Source of the DNA: Streptomyces sp. SCUT-3
Lineage (GTDB): Bacteria; Actinomycetota; Actinomycetes; Streptomycetales; Streptomycetaceae
Assembly: GCF_014083985.1 (NCBI RefSeq)
Contig: NZ_CP046907.1
Span: 4,440,501 to 4,504,500 of the forward strand
Length of the DNA stretch: 64,000 nt
Direction of reading: 5' to 3'
The notes beneath the pieces are model-generated. The model did not search any database, was not told where the DNA came from, and saw nothing but the letters and a program-made list of their open reading frames with translations. Positions 44,561-51,485 of this stretch are shown in pieces. Every line of letters starts with the position of its first letter. Position 1 is the first letter of the stretch. Both the position numbers and the translations under genes were made by a program.

Positions 44561-44956
44561 TCAGGAGGGGGCGACCACCGGCAGGCCGATCCCCATGGCG
44601 GCTGAGGCGAGGCGCTTGTCATAGGTGACGAAGGCACTCAGCTCCGGACGGACCTCCTCGGCCGTGGCGAGGTGGATCGCGTCGAGGGAACGCAGGAGCG
44701 GGTCGGGATAGGCCGCTGCGCGCCGACGGACGGCCTGGTCGATCTCGATCAGGTCGAAGGCGGCCAGGAGGCCGGGGAGTCGCGGCAGGGCTTCAGGGTC
44801 GGACCGGCGCAGGGCGCGTGCCGCCTCGACCTCTGCCAGTGCGCTGCTCACGCGCCGGTTCTCCGTGGGACTGCTCAGCAACCATGCTCTGAGGGCGGAG
44901 GACTCTGCTTCCCGGTGGGCGAGTTTCAACAGGGCGCAGGTATCCAGGTAGATCAT
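44561..44956 (-). CDS. PIN-domain toxin, VapC-like
   Basis: 131 residues with the PIN nuclease acidic set: D5 in MIYLDTCALLK, Glu in ALAEVEAARAL, Asp in RSLDAIHLATA and Asp in FVTYDKRLA. VapC toxins cleave tRNA or rRNA. ATG at 44956 overlaps the antitoxin stop (ATGA), so they are translationally coupled. Confidence 0.9.
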   Translation of the reverse strand: MIYLDTCALLKLAHREAESSALRAWLLSSPTENRRVSSALAEVEAARALRRSDPEALPRLPGLLAAFDLIEIDQAVRRRAAAYPDPLLRSLDAIHLATAEEVRPELSAFVTYDKRLASAAMGIGLPVVAPS

Positions 44957-45231
44957 CAGTAGCGCTCTTCGTCCCTCAGGTCGGCAAGGGCCTCCGACGG
45001 GCTGGGGCCCTCGTCGGCGAAGGAGATCTCCGCAGGGAGCTCCGTGGTGAGGGCCGGGCGGAGGCGCCCTTCGGAGATCAGCCGGTCCCTGACGGACTCG
45101 CCTTCCTTTATCGGAACCAGGCGCAGGATGGGTTTGCCGTGGTCCGTCACTTCGATGACCTCGCCCTGTCGGACGCGGTTGACGATGCGGGACGTGTGGT
45201 GGCTGAGATCCCTCAGCCCGATGCTCGCCAT
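44956..45231 (-). CDS. Phd/YefM-type antitoxin (VapB-like)
   Basis: 91 residues. The N-terminal Phd/YefM DNA-binding fold is ASIGLRDLSHHTSRIVNRVRQGEVIEVTDHGKPILRLVP; the C-terminal disordered acidic tail (PSPSEALADLRDEERY) would wrap the toxin. First gene of the pair, probably autoregulated with the toxin. Confidence 0.9.
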   Translation of the reverse strand: MASIGLRDLSHHTSRIVNRVRQGEVIEVTDHGKPILRLVPIKEGESVRDRLISEGRLRPALTTELPAEISFADEGPSPSEALADLRDEERY

Positions 45232-45253: not shown

Positions 45254-46168
45254 CTACATTCGGCCCCGGTCTTCGCTCCCGCCCGGGGTGAAGGTGACGG
45301 GGGCGCCGAAGGCGGTGCGGCGGGTGGCGCGGCGCAGGGCGAGCAGGACGGGGCGGCCCAGGGCGAGGGTGAGCACGGCGGTGAAGACGGCCCGGGACAG
45401 GTCCCACCCGGCGGAGCGGACCACCCAGTAGGCGCCGAAGCGTGCCAGGTTCTCGTGCAGCGGCGCACCCGGCTGGAAGGCGGCGTTCGAGGACGGGTCC
45501 AGCTCGTACGGCCAGCCGGACATGTTCATGATGAACCCGTAGGCGACGCCGGTGACCGCCCCGTACGCGGCGAGCAGGAGCAGTTCGCCCCTGCCGCGCA
45601 GGGTTTCCGGGCGGGGCAGCAGACCTGCGCCCATGGTCACCCAGCCCATGGTGAGCATCTGGAACGGCAGCCACGGGCCCACGCCGCCGGTGAGCAGCGC
45701 CGAGGCGAACATCGACAGGGACCCGAGGACGAACCCGAAGCCCGGCCCCAGGACCCGGCCGGACAGCACCATCAGGAAGAACATCGGTTCCAGGCCGGCG
45801 GTTCCCGCGCCCAGCGGCCGCAGTGCCGCCCCCGCGGCGGTCAGGACGCCGAGCATGGCGACGGCCTTGGCGTCCAGCCCGGTGTCGGAGACGGTGGCCA
45901 TGACCACCGCGATCAGCAGCGGCAGCAGCGCCGCGAACAGCCACGGCGCGTCCTGCGCGTGGGCCAGGGACGAATCGGGGGCGGCCAGCAGCGGCCAGCC
46001 GAAGCCGACCACGCCGACCGCCGAGACCAGGACCAGCGCGGCGATCGAGCGGGGGCCGAGCCGGACGGGCCGGGCGGCTCGGGCGGGGCGGGCGGCTCGG
46101 ACGGGGCGGGTGGTCCGGTCCGGTCCGGGGGACGGGGACGGGGCCGGGGCCGGGGGCCGGGCGGTCAC
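45254..46168 (-). CDS. ECF transporter S component (corrinoid/cobalt-type)
   Basis: 304 residues: a Pro/Arg/Ala-rich N-terminal tail of about 40, then about six membrane segments (SIAALVLVSAVGVVGFGWPLLAA; ALLPLLIAVVMATV; FFLMVLSGRVLGPGFGFVLGSLSMFASALLTGGVGPWLPFQMLTMGWV). The GPWLPFQM region is typical of ECF S components of the CbrT-like class. GTG at 46168 overlaps the ATPase stop. Last gene of a cobalamin-riboswitch operon, so a corrinoid (or cobalt) is the expected substrate; binding specificity is not readable from the sequence. Confidence 0.8.
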   Translation of the reverse strand: MTARPPAPAPSPSPGPDRTTRPVRAARPARAARPVRLGPRSIAALVLVSAVGVVGFGWPLLAAPDSSLAHAQDAPWLFAALLPLLIAVVMATVSDTGLDAKAVAMLGVLTAAGAALRPLGAGTAGLEPMFFLMVLSGRVLGPGFGFVLGSLSMFASALLTGGVGPWLPFQMLTMGWVTMGAGLLPRPETLRGRGELLLLAAYGAVTGVAYGFIMNMSGWPYELDPSSNAAFQPGAPLHENLARFGAYWVVRSAGWDLSRAVFTAVLTLALGRPVLLALRRATRRTAFGAPVTFTPGGSEDRGRM

Positions 46169-48075
46169 GACGCCTCCCCGAGAGCGGCGGCGACCTGCCG
46201 GACCGTCAGCCACCTCTGCGGCTGCAGGACCTTGGCCACCTGCGGGGCGAAGGTGGGGGAGGAGACCACCACCTCGGCCGAGGGGCCGTCCGCGACGACC
46301 TCGCCGTCGGCCAGGATCACCACCCGGTGGGCCACCTCGGCGGCCAGCTCCACGTCGTGGGTGGCCAGTACGACGGCGTGGCCGCGGGCGGTGAGGCCGG
46401 CCAGGTGCTCGACCAGGCGGGCCTTGGCCGCGTAGTCCAGGCCCCGGGTGGGCTCGTCCAGCAGGAGCAGCGGGGGCTCGGCGGCCAGGACGACGGCCAG
46501 GGCGAGGGCGAGCCGCTGCCCCTCGGACAGGTCGCGGGGGTGGGCGGCGTCGTCGACGCCGGGGAGGAGGGCGGAGACCAGGGCGCGGCAGGTGCCCGGC
46601 TCCGCGCCGGCGTCGCGGTCGGCGGCCTCGCACTCGGCGGCCACGGTGGAGGCGGTCAGCAGGTCGCGCGGGTCCTGCGGGACCAGGCCGACGTGGCGCA
46701 GCAGTTCGCGCGGCCCCGTGCGGTGCGGGGTGCGCCCGCCGACGGTGACGCTGCCGGAGGAGGGGGCGTGCAGGCCGACGAGGGTGCCCAGCAGGGTGGA
46801 CTTGCCCGCCCCGTTGCGGCCCATCAGGGCGACCGCCTCGCCGCGGCGGACGGTCAGGTCCACCCGGCGCAGGGCGGGCACGGGGCCCCGCCGCACCGAC
46901 AGCCCGGCCGCCTCGGCGAACGGCCCGCCGGTTCCGGGGCCGTCGGCGTCGCCCGGGGCGCCCGCAGGCGCGGCGGGGGACGGGACCGCCGCGGCAGGGG
47001 CGCCGCCGGCCGGGCCCGGGGCACCGGAACGGCCCTTCGGGGAGGCGGCGTTCCCGGAACCGAGACGGGTGCGCAGACGGGACCACAGACCGCCCCGCCC
47101 GTCCGGCCCGCCCCGCCCGGCGGTTTCCGGTGTCCCGGCCTCCTCCACGGCTCCGGCCCCGGGCGCGACGGCGGGCAGGGGGGAGGGGCCCGCGGCGGCC
47201 GCCGGCACGCCCACGACGCCTGCGGCGTCCGGGGCGCCCGAAGCGGGCACGGTGGGCACGGAGGCGAGGCGCTCGCGCAGGTCCCCCGCCCTGCGGCGCG
47301 CGTCGCGCACGGTCAGTGGGAGCGGCGACCAGCCGGCGAGCCGGCCCAGGGCCACCACCGGGGGGAAGACGGGGGAGACGCCCATGACGTCGGCGGGCGT
47401 GCCGACGACCGGCGCCTGCCCGGGGCCGGGCAGCAGCACCACCCGGTCGGCGTACTGCACGACCCGCTCCAGGCGGTGCTCGGCCATCAGCACCGTCGTG
47501 CCCAGGTCGTGCACCAGCCGCTGCAGGACCGCCAGCACCTCCTCGGCCGCCGCCGGGTCCAGCGCGGACGTCGGCTCGTCGAGCACCAGCACCTTCGGGT
47601 GGGTGGTCAGCACCGAGCCGATGGCCACGCGCTGCTGCTGGCCGCCGGAGAGGGTGGCGATGGGCCTCTCGCGCAGGTCGGTCAGGCCCAGCAGGTCCAG
47701 GGTCTCCTCGACCCGGCGCCGCATGGTGTCGGCGGGCAGCCCAAGCGACTCCATGCCGTAGGCGAGTTCGTCCTCGACGGTGTCGGTGACGAAGTGCGCC
47801 TGCGGGTCCTGCCCCACCGTGCCGACCAGGTCGGCCAGTTCGCGGGGCCGGTGGGTGCGGGTGTCGCGGCCGTCGACCGTCACCCGGCCGTGGAGCGTGC
47901 CGCCGGTGAAGTGCGGCACCAGTCCGCTGACCGTGCCCAGCAGGGTGGACTTGCCCACGCCGGACGGCCCGACGAGCAGGCACAGCTCACCCTCCGGGAC
48001 GGTCAGGTCCACGCCCGCGACCGCCGGGGCGGGAGCGCCGGGGTGGACGACGGAGACGTCCTCGAAACGGATCAC
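46165..48075 (-). CDS. ECF transporter fused double ATPase (EcfA-EcfA')
   Basis: 636 residues holding both energising ATPases in one chain. Domain 1: Walker A GPSGVGKST, Q-loop GTVGQDPQAHF, LSGGQQQRVAIG, VLVLDEPTSALD. Domain 2: Walker A GRNGAGKST, GLVPQDPRDLL, LSEGQRLALAL, LLLLDEPTRGLD and ATHDVE. They are joined by a linker of about 140 residues rich in Ala/Gly/Pro. Domain 2 has an S-E-G-Q signature variant. GTG start 48075, overlapping EcfT's stop. It couples ATP hydrolysis to toppling of the S component through EcfT. Confidence 0.92.
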   Translation of the reverse strand: MIRFEDVSVVHPGAPAPAVAGVDLTVPEGELCLLVGPSGVGKSTLLGTVSGLVPHFTGGTLHGRVTVDGRDTRTHRPRELADLVGTVGQDPQAHFVTDTVEDELAYGMESLGLPADTMRRRVEETLDLLGLTDLRERPIATLSGGQQQRVAIGSVLTTHPKVLVLDEPTSALDPAAAEEVLAVLQRLVHDLGTTVLMAEHRLERVVQYADRVVLLPGPGQAPVVGTPADVMGVSPVFPPVVALGRLAGWSPLPLTVRDARRRAGDLRERLASVPTVPASGAPDAAGVVGVPAAAAGPSPLPAVAPGAGAVEEAGTPETAGRGGPDGRGGLWSRLRTRLGSGNAASPKGRSGAPGPAGGAPAAAVPSPAAPAGAPGDADGPGTGGPFAEAAGLSVRRGPVPALRRVDLTVRRGEAVALMGRNGAGKSTLLGTLVGLHAPSSGSVTVGGRTPHRTGPRELLRHVGLVPQDPRDLLTASTVAAECEAADRDAGAEPGTCRALVSALLPGVDDAAHPRDLSEGQRLALALAVVLAAEPPLLLLDEPTRGLDYAAKARLVEHLAGLTARGHAVVLATHDVELAAEVAHRVVILADGEVVADGPSAEVVVSSPTFAPQVAKVLQPQRWLTVRQVAAALGEAS

Positions 48076-49184
48076 TGGACCTCCTTCTGGGGGCGCGCGG
48101 CGGGACGCGCGGGGACCGGGGCGACGAGGGCGGGCAGCAGCCCGAGCAGCACGCCCGCGGCCGGCAGCAGGGGCAGTTCGGGGGCGGTCAGCGGCACGGC
48201 GGGCGGGTTCATCGCCTGCGGGTACGCGCCCGCGGCCCACACCGTCACCGCGGCCACCGCGACCCCGGACAGCGAGACGGCCCAGGCCCGCGCCCCCCAG
48301 CGGTCGGGCCGGTAGCGGGTGCGCACCGAGCGCCGCCCGCCCAGGTACAGGCCGCCGAGGGCGGCGGCCAGCCCGGCCAGCAGCAGCGGCAGCCCGAAGG
48401 CCCCGCCGACGGTGGTCAGCAGGCCGTAGGAGCCGACGCACACCCCCAGCAGGCCGCCCAGCGTCAGGACGGCGGTGGTCCTGCGGACCGCGGCCGGCAC
48501 GGCAGCGGTGCGGCCGTACCCGCGCGCGTCCATCGACGCGGCCAGGGCCACGCTGCGCTCCAGGGCGCCCTCCAGGACGGGGATCGCGACCCGCACCAGC
48601 GCCGCCGGCCCCTTGTCCTTGCGCCCGCGCAGCCGGCGCGCGGAGCGCAGCCGGGCCATGTCGGCGACCAGGGTGGGGGCGGACGTCATCGCCACGACCA
48701 CGGCCACGCCCACCTCGTACAGCGCCGCGGGCAGCGACTTGAGCAGCCGCGCGGGGTTGGCCAGGGCGTTGGCCGCACCGATGCAGACCAGCAGCGTGGC
48801 CAGCCGCAGGGCCTGGCGCAGTGCGAAGGCCACGCCCTCGGCGCTGACCGGCCCGCCCAGCCGGATGCCCTGCGCCCAGTACGGCAGCGGGATCTCCGGC
48901 AGGGTGAACAGCACACGGGTGCCGGGCACGGAGGAGCCGAGGAGGACGGTGAACACCAGCCGGATCACCAGCACCGCCAGGCCCAGCTTGAGGAACGCCC
49001 CGTAGGAGCGCGCCCACGGCGCGGCGGTGCGGCGTACCGCCACCACGTACCCGGAGACCGCGACGAGCAGGGCGAGCAGCAGCGGGTTGGTGGTCCGGGA
49101 GGCGGCCGCGGCCAGGCCGAGAGCCCACAGCCACCACGCTCCGGCGTGCAGGGCGTTGCTGCGGTCGGCGACCGGCGCGGTCAT
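48072..49184 (-). CDS. ECF transporter transmembrane protein EcfT
   Basis: 370 residues. About five to six N-terminal membrane segments, with ECF-T coupling-helix motifs SARRLRGRKDKG (ARG-like) and ASMDARGYGRTAAV (second A-R-G), as in CbiQ/EcfT. C-terminal extra helices (GGLLGVCVGSYGLLTTVGGAFGLPLLLAGLAAALGG, shown here as two joined spans) make it longer than minimal EcfT. ATG at 49184 overlaps the upstream stop. Scaffold between S component and ATPases. Confidence 0.9.
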   Translation of the reverse strand: MTAPVADRSNALHAGAWWLWALGLAAAASRTTNPLLLALLVAVSGYVVAVRRTAAPWARSYGAFLKLGLAVLVIRLVFTVLLGSSVPGTRVLFTLPEIPLPYWAQGIRLGGPVSAEGVAFALRQALRLATLLVCIGAANALANPARLLKSLPAALYEVGVAVVVAMTSAPTLVADMARLRSARRLRGRKDKGPAALVRVAIPVLEGALERSVALAASMDARGYGRTAAVPAAVRRTTAVLTLGGLLGVCVGSYGLLTTVGGAFGLPLLLAGLAAALGGLYLGGRRSVRTRYRPDRWGARAWAVSLSGVAVAAVTVWAAGAYPQAMNPPAVPLTAPELPLLPAAGVLLGLLPALVAPVPARPAARPQKEVQ

Positions 49185-49939
49185 GAGCGGCGGCGTGCCT
49201 GCCACGCCGCTGCCGCGCCGAGCAGTACGACGGCGCCGACGCCGGCGAGGACGCCCACGGAAGGCCCGCCGTCCCTGCCGCCGTCTCCGTTGCCGTCCCC
49301 GCCGCCGTTCCCGTTGCCGTTCCCGGAGGAGGCCCCGGGGGCGTCCCCGCCGGCGTCGGCGCCGTCGGTGTCCTCGCCGGTGTCCTTCCGGCCGTCGCCG
49401 GCCACGGCCTCGCCGCAGCCCGAGGCGGGGAAGCCGTCGATGGCGCAGAGCAGGCCGTCGGAGCCGTAGCGCAGGGGCGCGGCCACCTCGGCCAGCGCCT
49501 CGGCGGAGGTGGCGCCCTCCGGCACCCGGGCGCAGGCGGTGCGCGGCCGGGGCGGAGTCTCGCCCCCGGGGGCGTCGTCCGCCGTGCCGAAGTCCAGGAC
49601 CAGCGCGATGCGCTTGGTGCCCTTCTCGGCGGGGGTGTCCGCGCAGATCTCCGCGAAGTCCCGGTCCCCGCGCGGCCGCGCAGCCTTCTCGGAGGAGTCC
49701 TCGCTGACCGAGAACCGCCAGCCCTCGACGCTGCCGTCGAGGGGGCGGCTGACCGACGGCCCCTGCCGGGCGTAGGCCCAGGCGTCGCCGTCGGTCTGCC
49801 AGAAGGACCAGTAGCGGTAGCCGACGGCCTCGGCCGGCGAGGCCGTGGCGGCCAGCAGGGCCGCGGCGGCCGGCAGGGCCGCGGCCACCGCCCTGCGGCG
49901 GAGCCGGCCCGCCGCAGGGGTGCGTCCCGCGCGTATCAC
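49181..49939 (-). CDS. Membrane-anchored surface protein, SCO2322-like, DUF4430-reminiscent
   Basis: 252 residues: an N-terminal signal (RRRAVAAALPAAAALLAATAS), an exported domain, a long Gly/Asn/Asp linker and a C-terminal membrane anchor (GVLAGVGAVVLLGAAAAW plus RRRS). The domain begins GYRYWSFWQTDGDAWAYARQGP and DGSVEGWRF, and later has VPEGATSAEALAEVA and GLLCAIDGFPASGCG. These segments recall the DUF4430 (transcobalamin C-terminal) fold but in swapped order. I recall the family name 'SCO2322 family' from Streptomyces annotation; unverified. GTG 49939 overlaps the upstream stop. Probably part of corrinoid capture outside the membrane. Confidence 0.7.
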   Translation of the reverse strand: MIRAGRTPAAGRLRRRAVAAALPAAAALLAATASPAEAVGYRYWSFWQTDGDAWAYARQGPSVSRPLDGSVEGWRFSVSEDSSEKAARPRGDRDFAEICADTPAEKGTKRIALVLDFGTADDAPGGETPPRPRTACARVPEGATSAEALAEVAAPLRYGSDGLLCAIDGFPASGCGEAVAGDGRKDTGEDTDGADAGGDAPGASSGNGNGNGGGDGNGDGGRDGGPSVGVLAGVGAVVLLGAAAAWQARRRS

Positions 49940-51198
49940 TTGTTGTTCCGGCCCCGCAGGCTGATGACGACGCCCGCGACGAGTCCCACGAGCAGGCCGG
50001 CGCCGATGATCCACCACAGGGCGCTGCCGGAGGAGTCCTCGGCCTCCTCCTGCTGCCCGTCGCCGTTGCCGGCGTCCTCGGAGGCGGCCTTCGGCTCGGG
50101 GCCCAGTGCGGTCAGCTGCTCGACGTGGGCGGAGGCGTCGCCGCCGGTCGCCGCCGCGGTGAGGACCAGCTTGCCCAGGGCGGCCGGCTGGTCCTTCGCC
50201 CACTCGGAGGAGTTCTTCCCCAGCCACGCGGCGGGGGCCTTCGCCGCCTCCAGGTGGCCGCCGGCGGCGAGGGCGAGCACGGCGTCGGCGGTCGTGCCGT
50301 GGTCGGGCGCCGGCTTGTCCGCGCCCGGCTGGAGGGCGCTCAGGTGCTGCCCGTCGGCCTTCAGCCGGGACACCAGGTAGGCGGCGGCCGCATCGGCCGC
50401 TTCCTCGGCGGAGCCGAAGCCCTCGGCGTCGCCGCCGGAGCACTTCGGCGCCTCGACGGGCCGGTCGCCCTTCGGGGCGGGGACGGCGTGGCCGCTGCCG
50501 AGGGAGGCGAGGGCGGCCGCCGCGGTGGCGTTGTCGTTGGCGACGAGTCCGCCCTCGGCGTCCGGCTGGTAGGCGAACGCGCCGCGCCCGTCCTTCTCGT
50601 CCGCGTCGCAGCCCAACTGGAAGGAGAGCAGCGCGTCGTAGGGGGACTTCGACCCCTTCAGCACGTCCGCGACCTTCTGCCCGGAGGCGTCGAGGGCGCC
50701 GATCACCACGGAGGTGGAGTTGGCGTCGCTGGGGTTGCCCGGGTTGTACGGCCAGCCGCCGTCCTTGTTCTGAACCTCCTTCAGCCAGTCCACGGCCCTG
50801 TCCACCGTCGCGGACTCGCCGCCGAGGGCCGCGAGGGCCTGCACGGCCATGGCGGTCGCGTTGGTGTCCTGGGTCTTCGGGTCGCACTTCACGCCGGTGT
50901 CGGCGCGGTAGGAGGCGAAGCCGCCGTCCTCGCACTGCTGGCCCGTGAGCCAGTCCACGGCCTCGTCGGCGGGGGTGACGCCGGCGGTGTCGAGGGCGAG
51001 CAGGGCCAGGGACTGGCGCCACACGCCGTCGTAGGCCGGGTCGGCCTTGCCGTACAGCCCGGCGGGGAGCTCGGGGGAGGGGGAGGCGGAGGCCGCGGGG
51101 GAGGCGGCGGCGACGGGGGCCGCGGCGGTGCAGAGGACGACGCCGGCGGCCAGGACCGCCGCGCTGCGGCGGACGGTCGCGGTGAACATGGTGGACAT
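49936..51198 (-). CDS. Membrane-anchored alpha/alpha-barrel (prenyltransferase/squalene-oxidase repeat) protein
   Basis: 420 residues. Signal peptide (RRSAAVLAAGVVLCTAAAPVAA), then QW/prenyltransferase-like repeats: DEAVDWLTGQQCEDGGFASY, ATVDRAVDWLKEVQNKDGGWPY, YDALLSFQLGCDADEKDGRG and DAVLALAAGGH, forming an alpha6-alpha6 barrel, and a C-terminal anchor (ALWWIIGAGLLVGLVAGVVISL then RGRNNK). It lacks the catalytic DxDD or zinc ligands needed for cyclase or prenyltransferase chemistry. The same barrel is the B12-binding N-domain of intrinsic factor/transcobalamin. First gene behind a cobalamin riboswitch and fused by overlaps to an ECF transporter, so I infer corrinoid binding. Confidence 0.78.
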   Translation of the reverse strand: MSTMFTATVRRSAAVLAAGVVLCTAAAPVAAASPAASASPSPELPAGLYGKADPAYDGVWRQSLALLALDTAGVTPADEAVDWLTGQQCEDGGFASYRADTGVKCDPKTQDTNATAMAVQALAALGGESATVDRAVDWLKEVQNKDGGWPYNPGNPSDANSTSVVIGALDASGQKVADVLKGSKSPYDALLSFQLGCDADEKDGRGAFAYQPDAEGGLVANDNATAAAALASLGSGHAVPAPKGDRPVEAPKCSGGDAEGFGSAEEAADAAAAYLVSRLKADGQHLSALQPGADKPAPDHGTTADAVLALAAGGHLEAAKAPAAWLGKNSSEWAKDQPAALGKLVLTAAATGGDASAHVEQLTALGPEPKAASEDAGNGDGQQEEAEDSSGSALWWIIGAGLLVGLVAGVVISLRGRNNK

Positions 51199-51304
51199 GG
51201 GAAGCCCGGTTGCCTTTCGGTGAGCGGTCCGTTGCCGGACACCGCTGCACACCCGCCCGGGAGGGCGGGGGCACCGGACTCCAGCTCCGTATACCTCGAC
51301 GGTG

Positions 51305-51351
51305 CCGGACCCGGTGGCCGGCGGCGCTCGCGCGCCGGCCACCGGGTCCGG
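51305..51351 (-). terminator. Strong hairpin between riboswitch and operon start
   Basis: Inverted repeat with about 17-bp arms (GGACCCGGTGGCCGGCG), about 110 nt before the first gene and 10 nt after the riboswitch core. Candidate riboswitch-controlled terminator. Confidence 0.6.
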
Positions 51352-51361
51352 GAGCCGCTCG

Positions 51362-51485
51362 TGCCCGTCCGGGTGTTCCGACTCACGGCCCTGTGCGGGC
51401 CGTTCACGGTTGCGGGTCAGCGCCGGATTCGCACCGGCTTCCCCCGATCGGACACGGATGAAGTTTTCTGGCCAACACTGTAGCC
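51362..51485 (-). ncRNA. Cobalamin riboswitch
   Basis: On the minus strand the conserved core reads GGGGAAGCCGGTGCGAATCC then GGCGCTGACCCGCAACCGTGA. This is the hallmark of the B12 element: GGGAA, CCGGTG...CCGG stem-loop, and CCCGCAACxGTGA. A further stem-loop (ACGGCCC...GGGCCGT) and GAGTCGGAACACC follow as in actinobacterial examples. It lies upstream of the ECF operon at 45.25-51.2 kb and would turn it off when adenosylcobalamin is plentiful. Confidence 0.93.

Follow-up and report, generated by a model that had tools for sequence, protein, structure and literature searches.

What does an operon import, and with what help, when it stands behind a cobalamin riboswitch and joins an energy-coupling factor (ECF) importer to two exported, membrane-anchored proteins? 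ECF importers are usually depicted without a separate extracytoplasmic binding protein, and the question is raised by a locus in Streptomyces sp. SCUT-3 that we analyzed within a stretch of 64,000 nucleotides (referred to here as the window; GCF_014083985.1, NZ_CP046907.1, positions 4,440,501 to 4,504,500), part of a genome of 6.08 Mb assembled as one contig. The gene content of this operon, its conservation as a cassette, and the circular permutation of both surface proteins relative to their homologues were directly observed. From these observations we infer that the operon probably encodes a two-protein, membrane-anchored corrinoid receptor that feeds the ECF importer; that the pair binds a corrinoid and passes it to the substrate-specific (S) component is supported only by context. 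In window coordinates, the whole operon and its riboswitch lie on the minus strand, as follows.

51350..51467, minus strand: cobalamin riboswitch aptamer on the 5' side of the operon (RF00174, 40.5 bits; gathering score, 31.5)
49936..51198, minus strand: protein 1, an exported, C-terminally anchored alpha/alpha toroid of the SCO2321 family (NF053823, AlphaFold2)
49181..49939, minus strand: protein 2, exported and C-terminally anchored, of the SCO2322 family with GPS-CTERM (NF040672)
48072..49184, minus strand: EcfT, the CbiQ-type transmembrane component (PF02361, 28.1 bits)
46165..48075, minus strand: EcfA1A2, a fused double ECF ATPase (two ABC_tran stretches)
45254..46168, minus strand: EcfS, the substrate-specific membrane component, of the family that accompanies the surface pair (PF12822, orthologues, tree)

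This layout agrees with the initial annotation, which had described five genes joined by four 4-bp stop-start overlaps behind a cobalamin riboswitch, two exported and C-terminally anchored products, and an ECF module downstream. The riboswitch scores above the RF00174 gathering score, and R1, a covariance model of our own built from five riboswitches, places it at 51452-51362 with 96.6 bits, the window itself being within the R1 training set. All four junctions are 4-bp stop/start overlaps (GTGA, ATGA, GTGA, and GTGA), and the translations of proteins 1 and 2, judged by eye, each show a signal peptide and a C-terminal membrane helix. In the ECF module, EcfT passes the PF02361 cut-off of 25 as a CbiQ-type T component, and protein 4 holds two ABC_tran (PF00005) stretches in one chain, its matches to the NCBIfam ECF ATPase models lying under their cut-offs. 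EcfS is borderline for PF12822 (30.1 bits as a whole and 30.7 when trimmed, with a cut-off of 30.7); 18 of the 21 rows of the EcfS alignment A8 match that family at an E value of at most 0.001.

How far this cassette is conserved was assessed by scanning genomes with the SCO2322 alignment and taking the best 80 of 547 relatives, 79 from Streptomyces and one from Wenjunlia. The toroid gene was present in all 80 loci and the full set of five genes in 62; a contig edge accompanies 16 of the 18 incomplete loci, the two others being L098, with no ECF genes detected, and L162, with no EcfS match. Two of the 80 loci (L122 and L134) failed a crude gene-order check. R1 was run on 93 sources, which include the five behind the model, and matched once in 90 of them, namely, the window, all 12 near-relative loci, and 77 of the 80 SCO2322 loci (the misses being L139, L152, and L165). 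In 76 of these 77 the riboswitch precedes the approximate start of the toroid gene by 49 to 333 bases, L148 having failed this crude measure, and the stricter RF00174 gathering score was reached by the window and 4 of the 12 near-relative loci.

Beyond these close relatives, a sample of 396 actinobacterial genomes contained a SCO2322-like gene in 54 (E value limit, 0.001), 13 of them past the family cut-off, and a toroid match in 70 (limit, 1e-10). Both occurred together in 47 genomes (Fisher p ~7e-36, uncorrected for kinship and with differing E value limits), including all 12 genomes listed from the window's own family, and with a looser limit a toroid match also lies close to the SCO2322-like gene in G016 and G036. 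Twenty distant loci were fetched out of the 41 genomes with weak SCO2322 matches; EcfT, EcfA, and EcfS were each found in 19, the toroid in 16, and a riboswitch above the RF00174 gathering score in 12. One such locus, L065 (G204), holds three cobalamin riboswitches and two toroid open reading frames (ORFs) within 10 kb.

What kind of protein is the first of the surface pair? Protein 1 belongs clearly to the SCO2321 family of membrane proteins (NF053823, 512 bits against a cut-off of 300) and also matches Pfam toroid families. The alpha/alpha barrel anticipated in the initial annotation was recovered by AlphaFold2 as a confident toroid, with a mean predicted local distance difference test (pLDDT) score of 94.9 and a predicted template modeling (pTM) score of 0.93. 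The barrel had further been described as lacking the catalytic residues of cyclases or prenyltransferases, which stood for class II terpene cyclases, the only class covered: their catalytic motif is DxDD, and among 78 toroid rows DxDD occurs in 6, three of these at one shared place, and DxDDT in none. A class II terpene cyclase was ruled out on this count.

The toroid differs from its distant relatives in the order of its parts. When 20 distant toroid ORFs were compared with the SCO2321 profile, 18 matched a later part of the profile (within 185-322) first and an earlier part (within 3-275) second; in L054 and L058 the first part of this swapped match has a negligible score, and the L066 toroid and a second ORF of L054 depart from the pattern, showing no swapped order. 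For 16 of the 20 ORFs, picked for a clear swap (leaving out L054 with its two ORFs, L058, and L066), undoing the swap lengthened the hhalign alignment from 198 to 295 columns and raised its score from 237 to 327. As a control independent of that choice, seven toroids from operons with a DUF4430 gene, taken regardless of their order, were compared in the same way, and here the score rose from 115 over 160 columns to 164 over 264 columns. Because toroids consist of repeats, a shift of register comes more easily here than in protein 2; the presence of an optimum among the cut points speaks for a real permutation of the toroid in the Streptomyces family.

Protein 2 is a member of the SCO2322 family (NF040672, 220 bits against a cut-off of 85) and also has a GPS-CTERM match (28.8; cut-off, 28). 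In the window, a segment running from YRYWSFW to VEGWRF is followed by one running from RIALVLDFG to GLLCAIDGFP, whereas distant actinobacterial proteins carry the two in reversed order, which we call canonical; a profile search of the genome sample likewise matched the SCO2322 halves in swapped order in G390, G366, G134, and G284. When the SCO2322 alignment was cut near residue 107 and its halves were rejoined, the hhalign score against the canonical domain rose from 84.7 over 42 columns to 150.2 over 106 columns, with none of 60 column shuffles above 18.4; neighboring cut points formed a plateau. Judged by these profile comparisons, a domain present elsewhere in the actinobacteria recurs in SCO2322 in circularly permuted form.

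The cysteines of the domain were followed across both arrangements. Four are invariant across the nine rows of the SCO2322 alignment A2, and counterparts of all four were found by eye in 18 of the 19 canonical rows, L066 being the exception. The canonical fourth cysteine sits either in the C-terminal tail or just ahead of the first strand, that is, at the two places joined by the linker of the permuted form. In a trimmed set, only 34 of 67 SCO2322 rows retain at least 4 cysteines, since many of these segments stop early. As for the direction of the change, permuted rows cluster amid canonical ones in a tree of EcfS (support of 61/86 with G062 and 99/98 without it), with the DUF4430-type rows apart; given this topology, which is rooted by midpoint only, the permuted order looks derived. 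Alignment A1 was used without L059, a near copy of L055, and a length filter for structure prediction kept 77 toroid segments and 66 SCO2322 segments, each out of 80. The AlphaFold2 model of protein 2 is of middling quality (pLDDT, 75.8; last 25 residues poor) and, once unpermuted, would in our own reading run strand, strand, helix, and three strands, an order that appears beta-grasp-like. A canonical-order copy of the cassette occurs at L168, divergent from a cobalamin riboswitch (L168:1983-3768, minus strand, 91.6 bits) that stands ahead of a gene for a family 5 solute-binding protein.

Which known domain might the canonical form resemble? The initial annotation had noticed segments reminiscent of DUF4430, a domain that TCN proteins carry C-terminally (PMC4350170). 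Compared with a DUF4430 profile from 20 actinobacterial loci, the canonical domain aligned co-linearly across 80 columns with a score of 28.5 and a probability of 47%, none of 60 shuffles exceeding 21.5, and a hand-picked subset of ten DUF4430 rows, seven from operons inspected and three without fetched flanks, gave 29.5 over 92 columns. Gene neighborhoods point the same way. PF14478 was found in 34 genomes, of which we fetched the flanks from 12 plus G171, G040, and G107, with the Rfam scan covering 11 of the 12 loci (L186 left out). Seven of the 12 loci (L179 to L185) bring together a riboswitch of 88.8 to 115.7 bits, a genuine DUF4430 (62.7 bits in L181), EcfA, EcfS, and a toroid, with an EcfT match in six of the seven. 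Their EcfS proteins match that of the window at E values of 5e-21 to 9e-29, and their toroids match SCO2321 at 2e-18 to 4e-30. In G040 a single run contains a riboswitch, DUF4430, a toroid, a canonical SCO2322-like gene, EcfT, and EcfA, and a single run in G171 contains canonical SCO2322-like, EcfT, EcfA, EcfS, toroid, and DUF4430 genes, the riboswitch found in G171 being on the other strand, beside a solute-binding protein gene that runs divergently. Sequence on its own leaves room for doubt over the DUF4430 link, and the operon evidence is stronger; the chain of profile comparisons together with the operon position supports the reading of protein 2 as a DUF4430-like domain. Between the riboswitch and the DUF4430 gene of two of these loci (L181:3433-5991 and L180:3050-5752) lies a gene for a PQQ_2/DUF5719 beta-propeller-type protein, perhaps a third surface part.

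How could such a pair work? In transcobalamin and intrinsic factor, B12 is sandwiched between two halves, and a toroid with a DUF4430-like beta-grasp protein, judged by what is established for these families, would match the two. The operon would then be a corrinoid (B12-family) uptake system, expressed when cellular cobalamin is low. The C-terminal helix would tether each protein at the outer face of the membrane, and within the wall space the toroid and protein 2 could enclose a corrinoid before handing it to EcfS, so that EcfS, EcfT, and EcfA1A2 would carry it across. It is tempting to speculate that a complex of two separately anchored chains could open and thereby release the ligand onto EcfS. 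The two halves of the animal B12 carriers probably have distant relatives in these surface proteins, split onto two chains and rearranged. Whether the Streptomyces family indeed keeps both intrinsic-factor-like halves as separate anchored chains, both circularly permuted, and so gives an ECF importer a dedicated two-part catcher, we consider evenly balanced.

Several results weigh against such a receptor, and some of them concern the toroid. Its model is closest to squalene-hopene cyclase (Z score, 23.7) and then to other toroids, and transcobalamin and intrinsic factor are not among the best 50 of the 874 chains with Z scores of at least 2, a result that does not exclude them. Sequence searches with protein 1 and with the toroid profile A10 both failed to reach transcobalamin, and phmmer with protein 1 against the PDB returned cyclases, prenyltransferases, and complement C4. 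The toroid fold is common to many functions, and of the intrinsic-factor-like barrel proposed at first, the fold class stood, and no direct structural match was found among these rows, the best of which are terpene cyclases. In addition, G062 (L047, one contig) has a permuted SCO2322 gene, an R1 match, and ECF genes but no toroid at an E value of 0.01. The operon might thus encode an ECF corrinoid or cobalt importer whose surface proteins do other work, for instance on the cell wall or lipids through an active toroid enzyme, as its closest solved folds and the persistence of the remaining system in G062 would allow. We judge this very unlikely, considering that the cyclase motif DxDDT is missing from every toroid row, that the toroid protein looks exported, and that toroid and SCO2322-like genes strongly co-occur and remain with the riboswitch and the ECF genes.

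Other difficulties concern protein 2. Foldseek and VIA-align found no structural match for its model (best E value, 2.3; best Z score, 2.2; 93 chains compared), phmmer against the PDB gave nothing useful, the Pfam DUF4430 model is absent from protein 2 and from all 19 canonical relatives, and a PDB profile search with these 19 gave 0 matches. A circular permutation would explain the missing structural match, yet that absence counts as no support. The profile probabilities of the DUF4430 link are 47-55%, and restoring the canonical order in SCO2322 lifts its own score against DUF4430 only slightly, from 26.7 to 28.4. Joined with 63 permuted rows (those of the 67 SCO2322 rows that were permutable by motif), the canonical profile scored lower, at 28.0 against all DUF4430 rows and 22.7 against the subset (100 shuffles, at most 17.7), and the actinobacterial DUF4430 profile reached Transcobalamin-2 and Transcobalamin-1 only at E values of 0.13 and 0.22. 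Because the permuted form gains so little against DUF4430, our confidence in a corrinoid receptor was lowered by a small step, which leaves it the probable reading. The silence of Pfam on the canonical relatives, the modest probabilities, and the poorer merged profile could also mean that the likeness to DUF4430 reflects convergence of small beta-rich domains with no common descent. We find this unlikely: the canonical domain outscores all its shuffles and aligns co-linearly across most of its length, comparable operons hold DUF4430 together with relatives of the toroid and of EcfS, and the two kinds stand side by side in G040 and G171. Thus, the transcobalamin C-terminal likeness noted at the outset is carried by profile comparisons and operon position, while Pfam, PDB profiles, and Foldseek gave no direct match. 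The same holds for the intrinsic-factor reading as a whole: structure prediction and structural search, which the initial annotation had proposed, found no direct match to intrinsic factor or transcobalamin for either protein, and the partial support for it came by another route, through the permutation, the DUF4430 profiles, and the operons.

A further set of observations touches the tie between the pair and the ECF module. In L098 the pair is present and ECF genes went undetected in the ~7 kb downstream, no ECF gene, toroid, or riboswitch was detected near the DUF4430 gene of G107, and in a sequence search of the PDB neither EcfS nor its profile matched any solved S component, CbrT included. 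The pair might instead store or buffer a corrinoid or supply an importer other than that of the operon's EcfS, which would suit L098 and also the draft genomes G134, G102, G166, and G335, where the toroid match lies on a different contig than the SCO2322-like gene. The fact that ECF genes share a stretch with the SCO2322-like gene in 19 of 20 distant loci, and that DUF4430 and toroid genes are accompanied by a related EcfS, makes this quite unlikely in our view.

Finally, which substrate would the importer and its surface receptor take? Four further cobalamin riboswitches in the window's genome precede genes for CbiM/CbiQ, CobD, a ribonucleotide reductase (the large-chain gene at L173, G000:C1:1963662-1963791), and a BtuF/FecCD-like importer. 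A CbiM/CbiQ system behind its own riboswitch makes cobalt an unlikely substrate, and the reading of the window operon as a cobalt importer was rejected. With the cobalt role taken, the operon is likely one of two corrinoid importers of this genome. With CobD and BtuF/FecCD-like import genes standing behind further cobalamin riboswitches, the need for an ECF system is harder to see, and a variant suggests itself in which these import genes take cobalamin and the operon takes another corrinoid, for example cobinamide or some other salvage precursor. This variant deserves some weight, although we would not favor it. A second importer could well be specialized, and ECF-CbrT takes both cobalamin (Cbl) and cobinamide (Cbi), according to its report (PMC5997447). 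That same text describes poly-specificity as seemingly inherent to B12-binding proteins, and the data presented here do not separate the two ligands.

How does this corrinoid receptor relate to systems already described? Burroughs et al. in 2007 predicted B12 scavenging by secreted toroid and SLBB proteins encoded beside CbiO/CbiQ, mainly in low-GC Gram-positive bacteria that usually lack key enzymes of B12 synthesis (PMC1796856). The likeness is close: these proteins are secreted and several are anchored, they combine a toroid with a beta-grasp domain, and their operons include a CbiO-like ATPase and a CbiQ-like membrane protein (PMC1796856), and the window correspondingly has a toroid predicted by eye to be exported, EcfT, and EcfA1A2 in one operon. 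For the SLBB partner, a genuine DUF4430 is present in the seven comparable operons, and the window's domain is DUF4430-like on moderate profile evidence only. The differences are equally clear, since the systems covered there are from low-GC Gram-positives, planctomycetes, and some euryarchaea and are commonly fused in a single chain (PMC1796856), whereas the window operon has two chains with sequences beyond Pfam's DUF4430, both permuted in the Streptomyces family, and its genome has CobD and cobalt-uptake genes. Our conclusion is that this operon represents an actinobacterial form of the kind predicted in 2007, with two separate permuted partners and a host that has at least some synthesis genes. 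What goes beyond the initial annotation is that both partners are, by their profiles, circularly permuted; a similar arrangement, mainly in low-GC Gram-positives, had already been proposed (PMC1796856).

The comparison extends to other B12 and tetrapyrrole binders. An alpha/alpha toroid and a DUF4430 beta-grasp closing on B12, as proposed here, would resemble animal intrinsic factor, transcobalamin, and haptocorrin; unlike these carriers, which are one secreted chain, the window pair consists of two anchored, permuted chains, and a direct sequence or structure match was not found. Like ECF-CbrT of Lactobacillus delbrueckii (PMC5997447), the system is an ECF importer for a corrinoid, which we infer here; for CbrT, other S components are predicted to use the same ECF module, and the accessible text does not mention surface partners. 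The B12-capture lipoproteins of Bacteroides (PMC6143338) are surface B12 catchers as well, but Gram-negative lipoproteins, and LhaSTA (PMC7299338) is also an ECF system for tetrapyrrole uptake, but for heme and iron-regulated, with toroid or DUF4430 partners unmentioned in the abstract. Among the papers judged by their titles and the starts of their abstracts, a scope outside which most subscription papers fall, none described the SCO2321/SCO2322 pair or its permutations.

If the proposed receptor is real, it would be an ECF importer with two extracytoplasmic binding partners, and it would extend the transcobalamin type of B12 holding to Streptomyces. It would also suggest a way in which such bacteria may capture extracellular B12 and give a testable function to the SCO2321 and SCO2322 families, which NCBI named from locus tags alone. 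The paired permutation, moreover, would amount to a natural experiment on how well a two-domain binder tolerates cutting and rejoining.

Directly downstream of the operon, at 44561-45231 on the minus strand, lie a short ORF for a Phd/VapB-like antitoxin and a PIN/VapC-like ORF, both recognized by eye.

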